Assembly (NCBI RefSeq): GCF_030296615.1 | Contig: NZ_AP027732.1 | Span: 3,911,042-3,975,041 of the forward strand | Length of the DNA: 64,000 nucleotides | Source of the DNA: Frondihabitans sucicola | GTDB lineage: Bacteria; Actinomycetota; Actinomycetes; Actinomycetales; Microbacteriaceae | Reading direction: 5' to 3' | Part shown: one piece after another, positions 8,195-40,788 of the stretch | How the letters are laid out: each line of letters begins with the position of its first letter | How positions within the stretch are numbered: the stretch's first letter is position 1 | Position numbers and translations under genes: made by a program | Notes under the pieces: generated by a model | Databases searched by the model: none | The model's input: only the letters and a program-made list of their open reading frames with translations | Told to the model about the DNA's origin: nothing

Positions 8195-9432
8195 TCAGAA
8201 GACCAGCACCAGCAGCACGACATTGAGCGTGATCAGGGCGACGGCTGCCACGGCGGCCAGCGCGGTCGTGTGCCAGCGGTTGCGCAGGTCGCCCATCGTG
8301 GCGCGCGACGCCGTGAACAGCACGAGCGGTACGAGGGCGAACGGGATGCCGAACGACAGGACGACCTGACTCAGCACGAGCGCGGCGGTGGGGTCGGCGC
8401 CGAAGGCCAAAAGAGCCAGCGCCGGCAGCAGCGTGACGATCCGGCGATAGAGGATCGGGACACGGACGTTCAGCAGGCCGTGCATGATCTCAGACCCCGC
8501 GTAGGCGCCGACCGAGGTCGAAGCAAGGCCGGAGGCCAAGAGCCCGATCGCGAAGAGCGTCGCGATGACCGGGCCGAGGTGGGTCAGCAGCGCGGCGTAG
8601 GCCCCCTCGAGGGTGTCGGTGCCGGAGACGCCGCGTAGGGTGCCGGCGGCGACGAGCAGGATCGCGACGTTGACGGTTCCCGCGACGACGAGCGCCACGG
8701 TCACGTCGATCTTCGTCGCCCGCAGCAGCAGCCGCGGCGCGTGGAGGAGCCCGCGAATCTGTCGCGCGCCAGAGCCGAGTGCGCGTAGATGGCGTGCGGC
8801 ATGATCGTGGCACCCAGGATCGAGACCGCCAGCAGCACCGATCGGGAGCCGTCGAACTGCGGGACGAGCCCCGATGCGACGCCAGCCCACTCGGGCGGCG
8901 CGGCCACGAGCCCCGCGCAGAAGCCGATCGCGATGAGCACGACCATCGCCGTGATGATCCGCTCGAAGACCTGAGCGCGGCCGCGGCTCTGGAGCAGCAG
9001 CAGACAGAGCGAGATGACGCCGGTGATCAGGCCGCCGACGATGAGCGGGAGATCGAAGAGCAGGCCCAGGGCGATGGCGCCGCCGATCACCTCGGCGATG
9101 TCGGTGGCCATGGCGACGATCTCGGCCTGGAGCCAGAAAGCGCGCCGCACCCAGCGCTGCGAGAGACGGCGGCCGAGGAGCTCGGGAAGGCTGGCGCCGG
9201 TGGCGATGCCGAGTTTGGCGGAGAGGTACTGGATGAGCCACGCCGTCGCGTTGCCGGCGATGACCACCCAGACGAGCAGGTAGCCGAACAGCGCGCCCGC
9301 CGTCATGTTGCTGGCGACGTTGCCCGGATCGAGGTAGGCGACACCCGCGACGAGCGCCGGGCCGAGCAGCGTGACGACGCGGGCGGTGGTCGCGGGGCTC
9401 GGCGCGTGACCGGGTGGCGCCTGGGTCGTCAT
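8195..9432 (-). pseudogene. mntH: NRAMP-family divalent metal (Mn2+) transporter, apparent frameshift
   Basis: An H+-coupled Mn2+/Fe2+ importer. The first frame from ATG 9432 (AGGAGG upstream) gives the diagnostic NRAMP motif LDPGNVASNMTAG, helix 6 motif MPHAIYAHSALARDRFAG and several membrane helices. The sequence then continues in another frame as LLHAPRLLLRATKIDV, VALVVAGTVNVAILLVAA and the remaining helices to the stop at 8195. Adding one G to the GGG (minus strand) at 8750-8752 restores one frame with the expected family sequence. The reading frame as given is broken, but the flawless remainder suggests a sequencing error rather than decay. A riboswitch-linked exchanger and a DtxR-type regulator lie within 7 kb. 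Confidence 0.85.
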
Positions 9433-9450
9433 CGCGGCCTCCTGGTCATC

Positions 9451-9498
9451 GCAGCCTCGTCGTCGTCGCAGCCTCGTCGTCGCAGCCTCGTCGTCGTC
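9451..9498. repeat. Short imperfect tandem repeat upstream of mntH
   Basis: GCAGCCTCGTCGTCGTC occurs twice (9451-9467 and 9482-9498), separated by a 14-base version lacking one GTC. It lies in the divergent region between mntH and the amine oxidase gene. It could be replication slippage or a regulator site. Confidence 0.6.
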
Positions 9499-9603
9499 GC
9501 GGTGCCTCGAACGTCTGGATTGCCAGAGTAGAGGGTGCCGCCGACAGACGTGCACCTCGCCTCCCGGCCCCGCTCGGGCCAGGGCTGACACAATGACAAG
9601 ACC

Positions 9604-11088
9604 ATGTCCATCAGCCGGCGGCTCTTCCTGACGGGCTCCCTCAGCGGAGCGGGCGTCCTGCTGTTGTCGGCCTGCACCGATCCTGCGCCGAAGCCGAGTG
9701 CGACGGCCACCCGCAGCCCCTCACCGACGCCGACGCCCACCCCGACGGCCACCGGGCCGAAGCCGAGCGCGTTCCGACGCAGCACGTGGGGCACCGACCC
9801 CTACGCCTACGGCTCGTCGAGCTTCCTGACCGCCGACTCGACCGACGACGACCGGTCCACCCTCCGCACACCCCTCGACGACAAGGTCTTCTTCGCCGGC
9901 GAGGCGGTCGCCGAGACCGACCCCGGCACCGTGATGGGCGCTCACGCCTCCGGTCTCGCGGCCGCGGCGCAGGTGGCCGCCGTGGCGGGCTCCGGCGAGC
10001 GCATCGCGGTCATCGGCGCCGGCATGGCCGGAGCGACGGCTGCCCGCGCTCTGGCCGATCAGGGCTTCGACGTCGTCGTCGTCGAGGCCCGTCACCGGGT
10101 CGGGGGCAGGATCGCGTCGTACGAGTCGGACGACTGGCCCATCGAGGTGCAGCTCGGGGTCTCGACGCTGTTCGGCGACGGGGCGTCGGCGTTCGAGTCC
10201 CTCCTCGCCGCCGAGGGGGTCAGCACGGTCGAGCTCGCCGCCTCCGGAACCGCCAGCCTCGACGGACGGACGAGCCCGCTGCCGACCACCGCTGCGATCA
10301 CGACCGCGCTGGCGAGCGCCTACGCGTGGGCGGAGAGGCAGTCCCAGGAGGTCACGGTGAGCTCGGCGCTGACCGGATCGGGCGCTGCCGCGCGACTCGG
10401 CACGACGGCAGACGCGACCGGCGTCTCCGATGCCGACCGCCTGGCGTTCCTCCTCACGGACGCTCTGCCTGCCCGCTTCGGAGCCGGCCCGAGCGCGCTC
10501 TCGGCACGCGTCCTCGACGAGGAGCCGCTCCCCCAGGGCGCTCACCTCGTGACCGAAGGCTTCGGCGACTACGTCACCGCCCAGCTGAAAGACCTCGACG
10601 TGCTGCGCGGCAGCAACGTCACCCAGATCGACTACGGCAACCAGGGCATCGGGCTTCGCTTCGTCACCGGCGAATCGCTCTCGGCCGATCGGGTGGTCTC
10701 GACCATTCCCCTCGGCGTGCTCAAGAAGAAGAAGATCGTCTTCGTCCCGGCCCTTCCGGCAGCGCAGCTGGCCTCGATCGACGCGCTCGGCGTGGGCGTC
10801 CAGGACGTCCTGTGGTTGCGCTTCGACGAGAAGCTCTGGTCGAGCGACGCGACCGTCTGGGCGGTGCTCGACGACTCGGCCACCTACAAGATCTGGCTCA
10901 ATCTCGAGCCGGCGACCGGTTCGCCGATCCTGGTCGCCCTGACCGGTGGCTCGGCGGCGACGAAGATCGGGAAGCTCGGAGACGGCGAAGCGGTCGCCGC
11001 CGCCGTGGCGAGCATCTCGTCCTACTTCGATCTCGCCCCGTCGACCGCGTCGCCGACACCGACACCGTCGTCGAGCCCGGCTCCGTGA
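9604..11088 (+). CDS. Exported flavin amine-oxidase-like lipoprotein with circularly permuted motif order
   Basis: A 494-residue protein with a Tat-like and lipobox signal: SRRLFLTGSLSGAGVLLLSAC, with Cys about 24, then a Pro/Thr/Ser linker. The next block (about residues 58-110) reads STWGTDPYAYGSSSF and DDKVFFAGEAV with DPGTVMGAHASG. In amine oxidases this is the C-terminal flavin-binding segment. Only after it comes the usual N-terminal dinucleotide fold, RIAVIGAGMAGATAARAL (about 125) and VVEARHRVGGRIAS, then the substrate domain and the late motif VVSTIPLGVLKKKKIVF. The product ends, in a Pro/Ser tail, where the normal C-terminal block would begin. This looks like a circular permutation. 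Substrate unknown. Its 3' end overlaps the next convergent gene by 67 bp. Confidence 0.85.
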   Translation: MSISRRLFLTGSLSGAGVLLLSACTDPAPKPSATATRSPSPTPTPTPTATGPKPSAFRRSTWGTDPYAYGSSSFLTADSTDDDRSTLRTPLDDKVFFAGEAVAETDPGTVMGAHASGLAAAAQVAAVAGSGERIAVIGAGMAGATAARALADQGFDVVVVEARHRVGGRIASYESDDWPIEVQLGVSTLFGDGASAFESLLAAEGVSTVELAASGTASLDGRTSPLPTTAAITTALASAYAWAERQSQEVTVSSALTGSGAAARLGTTADATGVSDADRLAFLLTDALPARFGAGPSALSARVLDEEPLPQGAHLVTEGFGDYVTAQLKDLDVLRGSNVTQIDYGNQGIGLRFVTGESLSADRVVSTIPLGVLKKKKIVFVPALPAAQLASIDALGVGVQDVLWLRFDEKLWSSDATVWAVLDDSATYKIWLNLEPATGSPILVALTGGSAATKIGKLGDGEAVAAAVASISSYFDLAPSTASPTPTPSSSPAP

Positions 11089-11798
11089 GCCGGAGGGCTC
11101 GCGATCCGGTGCCGCAGCAGGTGCGACGGCCGGAGTCGACTGAGGCCGATCAGTCCGCAGAGGACGGCGAGGAAGATCACGAGGACGATCCCGTTGTAGA
11201 GGGCGAACTGCCTCGGGCTGACCTGCGCAGGATCGAGGAAGAAGTACGGGTACCAGCGCACGTCACGCCCGCGATCGAGCGTGAAGAAGCCCCAGACCAG
11301 CGGGTAGACGAGCACCAGCCACAGCGTCCGCCACCGCACGGGCGTCCGGCCCGGCGCGAACACCCAGTCGAGCAGCACGTAGCCGGCCAGCCAGAAGTGG
11401 AGCACTTGACTCGAGGGCGGGAACGCCAGCGAGTAGTGGTGGCTCGCCGACTGCGACACGATCACGGCGAACACGATCCCCGACACCATGACGTAGCAGG
11501 TCACGATCGCGTGCAGCGCCGCGAACCACCGAGGGTCGCTACGACCCCGAAAGGTCAGGACGCCCGACACCACGAGGATGACGACGTTCACCAGGTTGCT
11601 CTGCTGCGTGAAGTAGCTGAAGTAGTTGACCGTCGCGAACGTCGAGAAGCCGAGCACGTATTGGAAGTTGGCGACGAGCGCCACGATGCCGACGGCGGCT
11701 GCGATGAGCCGGAGGATTCCGAACAGGCGGAACGACAGGGTGGTGTGCACCGCCTCACCCGCTCCCGAGTCGTCCGTCTCGGCGACCGGGGCCGCCAC
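11022..11798 (-). CDS. Pr6Pr-family integral membrane protein
   Basis: A 258-residue polytopic membrane protein with about six hydrophobic helices (FGILRLIAAAVGIVALVANF, VVILVVSGVLTF, FWLAGYVLLDWVF, ALYNGIVLVIFLAVLCGLIG). The signature NYFSYFTQQSNLVN followed by HAIVTCYVMVSGIVF is typical of the Pr6Pr (FAR-17a/AIG1-like) group common in actinobacteria. Biochemical role unknown. The last 22 codons overlap the end of the amine oxidase gene on the other strand and encode a hydrophilic tail, so the overlap costs nothing in the membrane core. Confidence 0.8.
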   Translation of the reverse strand: MAAPVAETDDSGAGEAVHTTLSFRLFGILRLIAAAVGIVALVANFQYVLGFSTFATVNYFSYFTQQSNLVNVVILVVSGVLTFRGRSDPRWFAALHAIVTCYVMVSGIVFAVIVSQSASHHYSLAFPPSSQVLHFWLAGYVLLDWVFAPGRTPVRWRTLWLVLVYPLVWGFFTLDRGRDVRWYPYFFLDPAQVSPRQFALYNGIVLVIFLAVLCGLIGLSRLRPSHLLRHRIASPPAHGAGLDDGVGVGDAVDGARSK

Positions 11799-37010: not shown

Positions 37011-39344
37011 ATGGCGACGGGAACACAGGCCGACGAGGCGAAGCCGGTCGCGACTGCGAACGCTGGGGGTCGTCGTCGAACCATCGGCCTGTGGGACCGC
37101 GTCCTCATGAGCGACATCGGCCTGGTGAAGCTCCTCGCCGGTGGCCGCGTGCTGTTCTGCGTGCCGGCGGGCATGGCGGCGGGCTTCGCCATCGCGGGCC
37201 TCTTCGGGCTTCCGCCGGTCGTCGGTCTCATGCTCGGGGCGCTCCCCGCGTTCCTGACCTGCTTCGTCGTCGTCGACGAGAAGGCGTCGCGGGTGGCCGC
37301 CCGGTCGGCAGCGCTGCTCGTCCCCTTCGTACTGGCCCTGTTCTGCAGCATCGCGCTGCGCGAGTTCCGTGTCCTCGAACTCGTCCTCATCGTCCTCCTG
37401 CTGTTCGTGCAGTTCTACTCGTCGCGGTTCGGGGTCTGGGCCGGCGACTTCGGCGGCGGGCTGTTCGCGGCGTACCTCTGCGGGCTCCTCCTGCCGCTGC
37501 CCCTGGCGTCGTTCCCCTCGCTCGCGCTGATCTTCACGATGTCGATGGCGGCGACCATCGCGATCCGCTCGATCCTGTTCCATCCCAACGCCTACCGCTC
37601 GCTGTCCAGGGCCCGCCGCGCCTTCGTCGGCCGGCAGACCCGCGTCCTCGAAGCCGCCGCCACCCTCCTCGAGGCGCCTGCCGATTCGAACTCCGAGCGC
37701 GACGCGGCGACTCTGCAGCGTCGGCGGCGGCAGTCGCACGAGGCTTCGCTCATCACCGACGGCCTCCTGGCGAAACCCGGCTCGGGCCCGACCGGTGTGC
37801 GGGCCGAGCAGCTGCACACGCTGCTGTTCGACATCGAGCAGACGGTCGACGGCCTGGCCCGCGTCGCGGTCGATCTCGCCCAGGGCGACACACCCGCTCC
37901 CGTCCGGGCCCGGATCGCCGCGGCCATCGAGCTCGTCCTCGACGAGTCGGGGCGCGCCGGTGACCGTGCCGCCGCCGAACTGCTGGCCTGGGCAGACTCC
38001 GAGCCGATCGTCGCGACCGATCCCCGCTGGGCGCACGCGGTCAATCGCACGGCACTGCTCCTGTCCGACCTCGCGAGCTCCTCAGCCGGCTGGAGCTCCC
38101 TCCGAAAGACGCTGCCCACGAGCGGCGAAGGGGTGCCGTTCCAGTCTCCCGTCGTCCTGGTGGGCGGCCGGCCCGCCGGCGCCGGGCCCATCCTCGACGC
38201 CGAGATCGCCGGGGGCGGGATGTCGGGCCCGTGGCGTCGGGTCCGCGTCTCGCCGCCGCTGCGCACCGCGATCCAGGCGGCCGTGGCCGTCGCCATCGCC
38301 GAGCCGCTGGCGTTCCTCGTCGACGGGCAGCGGTTCTACTGGGCCGTGATCGGCGTCATGATCGTGCTCGCCGGCACCAACTCCACCCACGACCGGCTGC
38401 GCAAGGTGGCCAGCCGCGGCATCGGCACGGTCATCGGCGGCGTGATCGGGATCGCGCTCGTCGACCTCCTCGGCACGACCCACGTGTGGTGGACCTTGGC
38501 CATCGTGATCGTGTCCCTGACCCTCGGCATGTACGGCTTCACGAGGTCGTACGTCTTCTGGGTCGTCGGCCTCGTCGTGACGCTGTGCCAGGTGTACGCC
38601 TACTCCGGCCAGTTCACCGACACGCTGATCGTCTACCGCCTCGCCGAGAACCTGCTCGGGGCGCTGATCGGCGTCGGCGTCAGCCTCGTGATCCTGCCCG
38701 TCGCGACCGGCGTCATGATCAAGCGGGCCGTGCTCCGGCACCTCGCCACCGTGCGCTCCTTCCTCGAGTCGGCCAGCGCCCTCGAGGGCGGCGCCGACGC
38801 GGCCGCGCGACTGCGCACCGCGTCGCGAGCCGTCGATCAGGCGACCTATCAGCTCGAGGCCGTGCTCAAGCCCATGGTGCGATTCCCGACGGGCGGCGGA
38901 TCGCGTCGCGACGACCAGCTGCTGACCGTGCTCCGCGGGGTCGCGGGAAGCCTCAGCGGCATCGCGTACCGCGGCGAGCGCAACGACACGATCGACGGCG
39001 AGAAGGCCGAACGCCTGAGCGAGATCGTCTCGGTCATGGTCAGGTCGGTCACCGCTCTGAGCGAGGCCGTCGCCGGCGCGAACGGCGGTGTGTGGCAGAG
39101 CTCCGCGGCGCTCCTGGCCGACCTCGACGGCACTCTCACCGACAGCGCCGACGACATCCTGCTGAGCTATCGCGTGCACGCGCTGGTGCGGGTCGACGAA
39201 GCCCTCGCGAGCCTGGCGACGTCGTCGGGCATGACGGTGGAGGGCACCGACGCGCAACCCGACCTCAGTGCCCGCCGCGCTCTCAACTCCGCCGGGCACG
39301 TCCGGCGCCGCTTCGACGACCAGCGACACGCACCCGCCAACTGA
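37011..39344 (+). CDS. FUSC-family transporter (aromatic acid exporter-like)
   Basis: A 777-residue membrane protein with two blocks of about six helices separated and followed by cytosolic helical domains. Block 1 starts GLVKLLAGGRVLFCVPAGMAAG. Block 2 contains the FUSC signature region RFYWAVIGVMIVLAGTNSTHDRLRKVASRGIGTVIGGVIG (about residues 440-480). This is the layout of AaeB/YccS-like proteins that export aromatic acids or other anions. The downstream neighbours are an amine oxidase, 16 bases later, and an SRPBCC protein, so the substrate could be an aromatic product of amine oxidation. Start: ATG at 37011 after GGAAGGA. Confidence 0.85.
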   Translation: MATGTQADEAKPVATANAGGRRRTIGLWDRVLMSDIGLVKLLAGGRVLFCVPAGMAAGFAIAGLFGLPPVVGLMLGALPAFLTCFVVVDEKASRVAARSAALLVPFVLALFCSIALREFRVLELVLIVLLLFVQFYSSRFGVWAGDFGGGLFAAYLCGLLLPLPLASFPSLALIFTMSMAATIAIRSILFHPNAYRSLSRARRAFVGRQTRVLEAAATLLEAPADSNSERDAATLQRRRRQSHEASLITDGLLAKPGSGPTGVRAEQLHTLLFDIEQTVDGLARVAVDLAQGDTPAPVRARIAAAIELVLDESGRAGDRAAAELLAWADSEPIVATDPRWAHAVNRTALLLSDLASSSAGWSSLRKTLPTSGEGVPFQSPVVLVGGRPAGAGPILDAEIAGGGMSGPWRRVRVSPPLRTAIQAAVAVAIAEPLAFLVDGQRFYWAVIGVMIVLAGTNSTHDRLRKVASRGIGTVIGGVIGIALVDLLGTTHVWWTLAIVIVSLTLGMYGFTRSYVFWVVGLVVTLCQVYAYSGQFTDTLIVYRLAENLLGALIGVGVSLVILPVATGVMIKRAVLRHLATVRSFLESASALEGGADAAARLRTASRAVDQATYQLEAVLKPMVRFPTGGGSRRDDQLLTVLRGVAGSLSGIAYRGERNDTIDGEKAERLSEIVSVMVRSVTALSEAVAGANGGVWQSSAALLADLDGTLTDSADDILLSYRVHALVRVDEALASLATSSGMTVEGTDAQPDLSARRALNSAGHVRRRFDDQRHAPAN

Positions 39345-39360
39345 GCCCAAGAAGGCACCG

Positions 39361-40788
39361 ATGACGTCGACCGATCCCGTACCGCTGCCGGACTACGCCG
39401 GCGAAGCCCCCGGTCACGGGGTCGAGAGGGTCGACGTGGTGGTCGTCGGCGCCGGCCTCGCAGGTCTCACGGCGGCCCGTGCCCTGACCGCCCGCGGCCT
39501 CGCGGTCGTCGTCGCGGAGGCGAGCGATCGGGTCGGCGGGCGCACCAAGGCCCGCGAGGTCGAAGGCTCCCTGGTCGACCTCGGGGGCACCTTCGTCGGG
39601 CCTACTCAGGATCGCATCATCGCGCTGGCCGACGAGCTCGGCCTCGACCGATTCGCCACCTTCGACGCCGGCTCGAACGTGATCAGTTGGCGCGGAGCCA
39701 TCAAGCACTACCGCGGCACCATCCCGCCGATCGGGCCCATCGGCCTCGCCGACATCGGGCGGATCCAGTTCGAGATCGATCGCCTCGGACGCGGCATCGA
39801 CACCGCCCACCCGGAGCGTTCTCCGCACGCGGCGAAATGGGACTCCCACTCGCTCACGTCGTGGCTCCGCTCGATCCACGCTCTGCCGAGCTCGCACACG
39901 CTGATGAGTATCGTCTCGGGGACGACCTGGGGCTGCGAGCCGGGCGAGATCTCGTTCCTGCAGGTGCTCCGCTACATCGCCATGGCCGGGGGCATCAGCC
40001 GAATGCTCGACACCGCCGGCGGCGCCCAAGAAGAGCATTTCCGGCAGGGCTCCTGGCAGGTCTCGGCCCGCATGGCCGCCGAGCTGGGCGACCGCGTCCG
40101 CCTCGCGACACCGGTGACCGCCGTCGACTGGACCGATGACGGCGCGGTGGTGACCGCGGGCCCGGCGCGCTTCCGTGCCGCACGGGTCGTGCTCGCCGTG
40201 CCGCCTGCCCTCCGCGCGCGGATCGCCTTCTCCCCCGCCCTCCCGACCCCGTACTCCGCGCTCACCCAGCGCTGGCCGCAGGGCATCCTCTCGAAGGCGT
40301 ACGCCGTCTACGAGCAGCCGTTCTGGCGAGACGCCGGGCTGAGCGGGCAGGCTCTGGCCGACACCGGGCCGGTCACGATCACGTTCGACGCGTCGCCGCA
40401 CGACGGCTCGCGAGGCATCCTGCTCGGCTTCATCGGAGGCGACCACGCCAGGCACTGGGACGCCCTGCCTCCCGCGGAGCGCCGGATCCAGGCGCTGTCG
40501 TCGTTCGCGGAGGTCTTCGGCGAGAAGGCGCTGACGCCGCTCGGCTTCACCGACCAGCTCTGGGCCGCCGAGGCGTGGACCGGAGGCGGGCCGACCGCAG
40601 CGCCCGCCGTGGGCACGGTCGTCTCGACGGCGCCGTACCTGCGCGAACCCGTCGGTCCGCTGCACTGGGCCGGGACGGAGACCGCCGAGGCGTGGACCGG
40701 ATTCATGGACGGCGCCGTGCGGTCGGGCGAACGCGCGGCTCGCGAGATCCTGCGGGCCCTTCGCCCCTTTGCCGAGGTGGCGCCGTGA
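39361..40788 (+). CDS. Flavin monoamine oxidase family protein (canonical motif order)
   Basis: A 475-residue cytosolic FAD-dependent amine oxidase. The dinucleotide fold VVVVGAGLAGLTAARAL is near residue 25, then EASDRVGGRTK, substrate-domain motifs (LGGTFVGPTQDRI, SGTTWGCEPGEISFLQVLRY) and the C-terminal flavin block LHWAGTETAEAWTGFMDGAVRSGERAA. It oxidises primary or secondary amines to imines with H2O2; tyramine- or putrescine-type substrates are typical but not provable here. It contrasts directly with the permuted homologue at 9604. The FUSC transporter lies upstream and a GTGA overlap couples it to the SRPBCC gene. Confidence 0.92.
   Translation: MTSTDPVPLPDYAGEAPGHGVERVDVVVVGAGLAGLTAARALTARGLAVVVAEASDRVGGRTKAREVEGSLVDLGGTFVGPTQDRIIALADELGLDRFATFDAGSNVISWRGAIKHYRGTIPPIGPIGLADIGRIQFEIDRLGRGIDTAHPERSPHAAKWDSHSLTSWLRSIHALPSSHTLMSIVSGTTWGCEPGEISFLQVLRYIAMAGGISRMLDTAGGAQEEHFRQGSWQVSARMAAELGDRVRLATPVTAVDWTDDGAVVTAGPARFRAARVVLAVPPALRARIAFSPALPTPYSALTQRWPQGILSKAYAVYEQPFWRDAGLSGQALADTGPVTITFDASPHDGSRGILLGFIGGDHARHWDALPPAERRIQALSSFAEVFGEKALTPLGFTDQLWAAEAWTGGGPTAAPAVGTVVSTAPYLREPVGPLHWAGTETAEAWTGFMDGAVRSGERAAREILRALRPFAEVAP

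Follow-up and report, generated by a model that had tools for sequence, protein, structure and literature searches.

Results

Layout of the locus

The window, that is, the whole 64 kb stretch of DNA analysed in this work, carries a gene for a flavin amine oxidase family protein in which the parts of the domain follow one another in an unusual order (Table 1). The reading frame is exactly the one proposed in the first-pass annotation, and the motifs listed there are present with small offsets: the C-terminal block (C block) extends from W62 to G117 (given earlier as about 58-110), and VIGAGMAG begins at residue 136 (given earlier as about 125). We take W62, D65, G99, E100, T109, A113 and G117 to lie in motifs that contact FAD, and the S72 site presumably corresponds to Tyr761 in LSD1 numbering.

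The gene of a Pr6Pr family membrane protein (108.2 bits with NF038065) lies tail to tail with the permuted gene and overlaps its end. Within positions 8195-9591, on the minus strand, the gene of the NRAMP manganese transporter MntH is split over two frames matching profile positions 1-187 and 198-356 of 357, which reflects a frameshift or a sequencing error.

Table 1. Positions of the permuted gene, of the parts of its product and of the convergent neighbour in the window
Feature	Position	Strand	Basis
Permuted flavin amine oxidase family protein gene, 494 aa, ATG start	9604..11088	+	ORF call, PF01593 profile
Tat-type signal (SRRLFL) and lipobox LSAC, residues 1-24; predicted lipidated Cys is residue 24	9604..9675	+	Motif; export predicted
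Pro/Thr/Ser-rich linker, residues 25-51	9676..9756	+	pLDDT < 50 for residues 1-48
Moved C-terminal FAD block, residues 52-128 (W62, D65, FAGE 97-100, T109, GA..SG 112-117)	9757..9987	+	Sequence alignments; block means of pLDDT 82-98
S72 codon, place of the cage tyrosine	9817..9819	+	Residue alignment
M111 codon, place of the His in the TVHGA motif	9934..9936	+	Residue alignment
N-terminal dinucleotide-binding fold, residues 131-200	9994..10203	+	Pfam and phmmer
Substrate domain and remaining core, residues 201-478; chain stops just before the canonical C block start	10204..11037	+	Structure match and Pfam
V402 codon, place of the catalytic lysine (LSD1 Lys661, maize PAO Lys300)	10807..10809	+	Printed LSD2 and spermine oxidase alignments
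Pro/Thr/Ser-rich tail, residues 479-494	11038..11085	+	Sequence and model
Pr6Pr family membrane protein (NF038065), 258 aa, convergent conserved neighbour	11022..11798	-	NCBIfam profile

The domain is complete but rotated

By sequence, the product of the gene is a real circularly permuted member of the flavin amine oxidase family. It had been claimed that the C block precedes the dinucleotide fold and that the chain ends where this block usually starts, and both statements were borne out by phmmer, by the PF01593 profile and by a rotated query. In phmmer comparisons with PDB chains, query residues 129-206 matched spermine oxidase residues 2-78, residues 352-417 matched 260-326 and residues 49-124 matched 403-479. 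Against LSD2, the core of the query ended at residue 475 (LSD2 695), and the C block (52-126) corresponded to LSD2 701-775. The native chain contains both the N-terminal dinucleotide motif and the C-terminal FAD motif of PF01593, and its match to that profile amounted to 163.7 bits in all (cut-off 19.8) in two stretches, the best of which paired residues 141-478 with profile positions 1-369 of 443. Unlike in the canonical order, in which the C block comes last, the block at 52-128 precedes the fold at 131, and each segment of the domain occurs once, in rotated order.

The rotated chain matched profile positions 1-442 of 443 in a single stretch (184.5 bits), thus no part of the domain is missing. 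Rotation also raised the LSD2 score (91.9 bits before, 108.3 bits after), and a single aligned stretch then spanned the restored joint, but not all scores rose (spermine oxidase, 99.2 to 96.6 bits; 5lae, 70.3 to 70.1 bits). A further C block, the existence of which would have spoken against permutation, was searched for by tblastn across the 64 kb window; the block was found in a single copy, and the next-best match (E = 0.014) was antisense and lay inside the 9604-11088 gene itself. The second amine oxidase gene of the window (39268-40788) matched profile positions 1-443 in one stretch, in agreement with the normal order ascribed to it before. Among the 25 best of 81 rows, no named NCBIfam family reached its cut-off for the window protein.

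Predicted structure

Structure prediction, suggested in the first-pass annotation as a check, yielded a confident AlphaFold model (29-row alignment; pLDDT 86.1, pTM 0.83). The moved block was modelled confidently. Its last helix spans residues 110-127 and is followed, after a loop of about five residues, by the strand with which the dinucleotide fold begins (133-137). In VIA-align, residues 130-478 matched LSD1 with a Z-score of 24.2 (2.7 A over 332 residues). VIA-align and Foldseek both follow chain order. The VIA-align matches to MAO-A and maize PAO stopped at residues 384 and 381 of these enzymes, respectively, whereas the rotated sequence aligned on to residue 451 of maize PAO, and all 50 VIA-align matches listed start at model residue 122 or beyond. 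Foldseek gave TM-scores over the query of about 0.5-0.6, with many LSD1 matches at rmsd values of 11-14 A. Residues 52-128 would presumably sit on the flavin, as the C block does in the canonical enzymes.

Distribution of the permuted order

Homologues sharing the rotated order were sought, and they were found in the genus, in Microbacteriaceae, in further Actinomycetota, in Alphaproteobacteria and in the cyanobacterium Okeania. Five of the seven genomes of the genus, the source genome included, encode full-length colinear homologues, the other four at 67-73% identity. The named relatives Frondihabitans sp. PhB188 and Leaf304 are 65-66% identical to the window protein, and the three proteins group together in the tree (SH-aLRT 100). 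Assembly or sequencing error and chance were rejected as sources of the order, since colinear homologues exist in other genomes.

At least 62 of 199 Microbacteriaceae genomes contain a match, a lower bound as the best 7 candidates per genome were scored in most genomes; 61 of the 62 matches begin within query residues 1-4, and the remaining one, in G109, is limited to residues 127-473. Among the best 80 of 487 relatives in named genomes, the C block comes first in 63 and last in 17. Represented among the 63 permuted loci are Acidimicrobiia and further Actinomycetota, Nitratireductor (on a 1.06 Mb contig), one bin of Hyphomicrobiales and two of Okeania.

Larger samples were searched with a profile of the junction, which tells the two orders apart by span: a permuted match runs from 2-5 to 141-144, a single canonical gene covers only about 2-91. 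With the best 10 candidates scored in most genomes (13 for the phylum of Okeania), the permuted order was found in at least 11 of 396 genomes of the phylum sample (6 of them outside Microbacteriaceae), in at least 3 of 385 genomes of the class of Nitratireductor and in at least 1 of 292 genomes of the phylum of Okeania, the last being the Okeania query genome itself. One of the three in the class of Nitratireductor (L142 in G1215) was assigned from span alone, and in one genome of the phylum sample (L127 in G544) the gene has the permuted order in an open frame of only 290 aa. These low counts indicate that the permuted protein is rare outside Microbacteriaceae, as far as the sampled sequences tell. 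The permuted gene may have passed between lineages.

Origin of the permutation

For the analysis of origin, tree rows were thinned by similarity from 133 to 84. The one-clade comparison used 62 permuted (rotated) and 18 canonical rows; L004, L143, L143b and L108, which are long or unsure, were left out. Constraining all 62 permuted rows to one clade gave a tree that beat the free one by 3.78 log units (p-AU 0.567), so that a single origin is not rejected, although 2 changes of order, and not 1, are required on the free tree. When the four rows are included, the order label needs 3 changes, of which the starred branches force 1. These are quick trees, made without bootstrap and with branches left open toward the base. 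As judged from these sequence comparisons, a single origin of the permutation is probable.

Two alphaproteobacterial genomes (L143, L144) each contain a tandem of two canonical amine oxidase genes, placed head to tail and in frame with each other, with about 45 bases between them. The starting point expected for duplication and fusion thus exists in nature; the pairs are an example of that state and do not imply ancestry of the permuted line. The probable route is tandem duplication, fusion and trimming in a lineage that was already exported by Tat. As the sequence shows, about five residues now join the original N and C termini, and the new termini lie at the loop that separates the substrate domain from the last FAD segment; both parts are modelled confidently.

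The in-frame pairs also show that fusions can form, and it could be argued that the N-terminal block is no working part but the remnant of an amine oxidase gene that once lay upstream and became fused with a truncated second one. This would, however, hardly account for W62, G70, G99, E100, A113 and G117 being identical in 62 of 62 permuted rows, for rotation yielding one complete domain with a higher Pfam score, for the same order recurring in most of the best loci (see above) or for the confident modelling of the block, and we regard a remnant as scarcely credible.

The amine oxidase active site is mostly lost in Microbacteriaceae

The description of the protein as amine-oxidase-like held for the fold but not for the active site: the window protein has neither the catalytic lysine nor the cage tyrosine, and V402 takes the position of the lysine when the chain is aligned with LSD2 and spermine oxidase. 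The lysine is present in 22 of 22 canonical rows, in 16 of 16 early permuted rows and in 11 of 46 rows of the Microbacteriaceae clade to which the window protein belongs. The corresponding figures are 20/22, 16/16 and 2/46 for the cage tyrosine (S72 in the window protein), 21/22, 14/16 and 2/46 for the histidine (M111) and 21/22, 16/16 and 46/46 for the glutamate of the FAGE motif. W62, D65, G99, E100, T109, A113 and G117 are kept nearly everywhere. On the 80-row tree the losses of Lys, Tyr and His require at least 5, 4 and 4 changes, respectively, and the retention of the lysine in 11 clade members means that its loss has not been uniform.

Lys, Tyr and His are thus mostly lost in the clade, whereas the FAD motifs are kept and the early permuted relatives retain Lys and Tyr; from this pattern the window protein is probably no amine oxidase. 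The same distribution suggests that the rotation came first, with the amine site intact, and that the site was lost later, in Microbacteriaceae. Loss of active-site residues alone is not proof of a changed substrate.

It is conceivable that the window protein, although permuted, still oxidises amines or polyamines at the cell surface, another residue having taken over the role of the lysine. Its fold is closest to LSD1, LSD2 and polyamine oxidase, its sequence is also close to spermine oxidase, and the residues are retained in the early permuted relatives and, for the lysine, in part of its own clade (see above). These points are opposed by V402, S72 and M111 in the window protein itself and by the effects of lysine mutations given in the consulted part of PMC3184146, where K661A abolished the activity of LSD1 and Lys300Met made flavin reduction by maize PAO 1400-fold slower. 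A working oxidase is therefore unlikely in the case of the window protein. By sequence, L088, L089, L085 and L096 are the most promising candidates for a permuted enzyme that still has amine oxidase activity; L085, L088 and L096, the ones represented in the tree, keep Lys and Tyr.

Export and membrane anchoring

The N-terminus has the features of a Tat lipoprotein by motif only: a twin arginine, a hydrophobic stretch and a lipobox cysteine. The signal proposed in the first-pass annotation is supported by the invariance of R5, R6 and C24 in all 29 rows of an alignment of the window protein with 28 of 31 relatives; L011, L032 and L036, left out of that alignment, all have RR and a Cys. The permuted copies from Okeania, Nitratireductor and Hyphomicrobiales have RR without a lipobox Cys. 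L088, L089, L085 and L096, the copies from these three sources, are shorter, with about 407-410 aa.

A permuted, lipid-anchored flavoenzyme outside the cell had been thought new, and for the lipid anchor and the export this did not hold: 15 of 29 canonical rows have the RR motif and 12 of these also a following Cys (by eye). Tat-type lipoprotein signals are thus common among canonical relatives, and, as far as signal motifs can tell, export most likely preceded the rotation. Of the combination proposed as new, the rotated order of the chain is supported by the sequence, whereas lipid-anchored export is shared with canonical relatives.

The signal suggests that the protein is made in the cytoplasm, would fold there with FAD and would leave via Tat, after which a lipid on Cys24 could hold it at the membrane on a flexible linker of 27 residues. 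The rotation took the tether away from the dinucleotide fold and put it on the far loop, which may have changed the way the active site faces toward the membrane.

The Pr6Pr neighbour

Of 49 loci of the Microbacteriaceae clade, the window included, 47 have a Pr6Pr homologue close to the permuted gene, versus 0 of 15 other permuted loci. The two clade loci without a nearby Pr6Pr gene are L040 and L068, and in L067 Pr6Pr is on the same strand. Within 3 kb, the commonest gene family occurs upstream in 11 and downstream in 46 of the 49 loci (45 and 48 of which have room), thus the Pr6Pr linkage exceeds what shared surroundings would give. As read from the genome lists, at least 50 of the 62 carriers of the permuted gene have a Pr6Pr match within 1 kb. 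Pr6Pr is present in 168 of 199 Microbacteriaceae genomes, most of them without the permuted gene, and this wider spread and the convergent orientation argue against a strict pair. The switch of the active site coincides in the tree with the presence of the Pr6Pr neighbour, but this amounts to one event and no statistical proof. In two genomes the permuted gene lies between two Pr6Pr genes (G081 C1:1544567-1547080 and G143 C3:273298-275812).

T64, H134 and R176 as well as the WYPYxFLD motif are invariant in 19 aligned Pr6Pr sequences. No Pfam family was found for the Pr6Pr protein at E 0.001, and the 19 sequences gave only weak single-member matches, such as Far-17a_AIG1 (E 0.41). The model of Pr6Pr (pLDDT 81.1, pTM 0.78) showed no clear resemblance to a solved fold, the best Z-score being 8.3, within chance for helical proteins, and the best Foldseek E-value 0.068. 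The name Pr6Pr was not found in a search of mostly open-access literature. No gene for a substrate or electron acceptor and no cytochrome c gene was found among the scanned neighbours in the window, and no evident partner gene lies beside the Okeania and Nitratireductor copies in their ORF lists.

With active-site residues lost, FAD motifs kept and Pr6Pr adjoining in nearly all clade loci, the window protein could also be imagined as a flavin-binding protein without catalysis, for instance a structural or sensing partner of Pr6Pr. The opposite strand of Pr6Pr (L067 excepted) and its occurrence in 168 of 199 family genomes versus at least 62 of 199 for the permuted gene do not fit well with such a role, which we judge to be quite unlikely. 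A rather doubtful but more far-reaching proposal is a two-part redox system of the actinobacterial envelope, in which the permuted flavoprotein, freed from amine oxidation and kept at the membrane surface by its moved tether, would work with the tail-to-tail Pr6Pr protein, passing electrons or a lipid-borne substrate.

Discussion

We consider it quite probable that the gene encodes a naturally permuted form of the flavin amine oxidase fold, predicted to be a Tat-exported and lipid-anchored FAD protein, that its amine site has mostly been lost in Microbacteriaceae and that its substrate is not an amine and its electron acceptor not O2. At the cell surface, the window protein most likely would oxidise or reduce the non-amine substrate, which is proposed from the loss of the lysine and the aromatic cage with retention of the FAD motifs, and it may pass the electrons to an acceptor other than O2. 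The latter is proposed from the lost site together with the family members that use cytochrome c. According to the consulted part of PMC12272882, NicA2 was shown to deliver electrons to cytochrome c rather than to O2, and the same was proposed for the NctX enzymes, which are predicted membrane-anchored lipoproteins. NicA2 and NctX likewise belong to the flavin amine oxidase family and are dehydrogenases, and NctX shares the predicted lipid anchor; they differ in having a cytochrome c gene in the operon, in contrast to the scanned neighbourhood of the window protein, and that part of the source mentions no permutation (PMC12272882).

LSD1/LSD2, spermine oxidase and polyamine oxidase (PF01593) share with the window protein all segments, the FAD motifs and the core fold, but the window protein differs from them in its rotated order and in the replacement of the catalytic Lys and the cage Tyr. 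The canonical relatives with Tat-type lipoprotein signals (L103, L109, L111) belong to the same family at 27-28% identity and have the same RR signal and Cys; unlike the window protein they are canonical in order, and canonical rows keep Lys and Tyr almost without exception (see above). Natural circular permutations are known elsewhere, as in concanavalin A and the swaposins, in which a rotated order goes with a complete fold just as in the window protein. A search of titles and mostly open-access literature turned up no published permuted member of the flavin amine oxidase family; the family is well known, and its permuted form was not found in print.

An ordinary Pfam label hides both the permutation and the loss of the site, as the PF01593 score lies far above the cut-off. 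The clade suggests an order of events in which the rotation was followed, in Microbacteriaceae, by loss of the amine site together with the presence of a conserved neighbour. A cofactor-binding fold that is permuted in three phyla offers a natural test of the role of chain order in the folding of a protein with its cofactor before Tat export.
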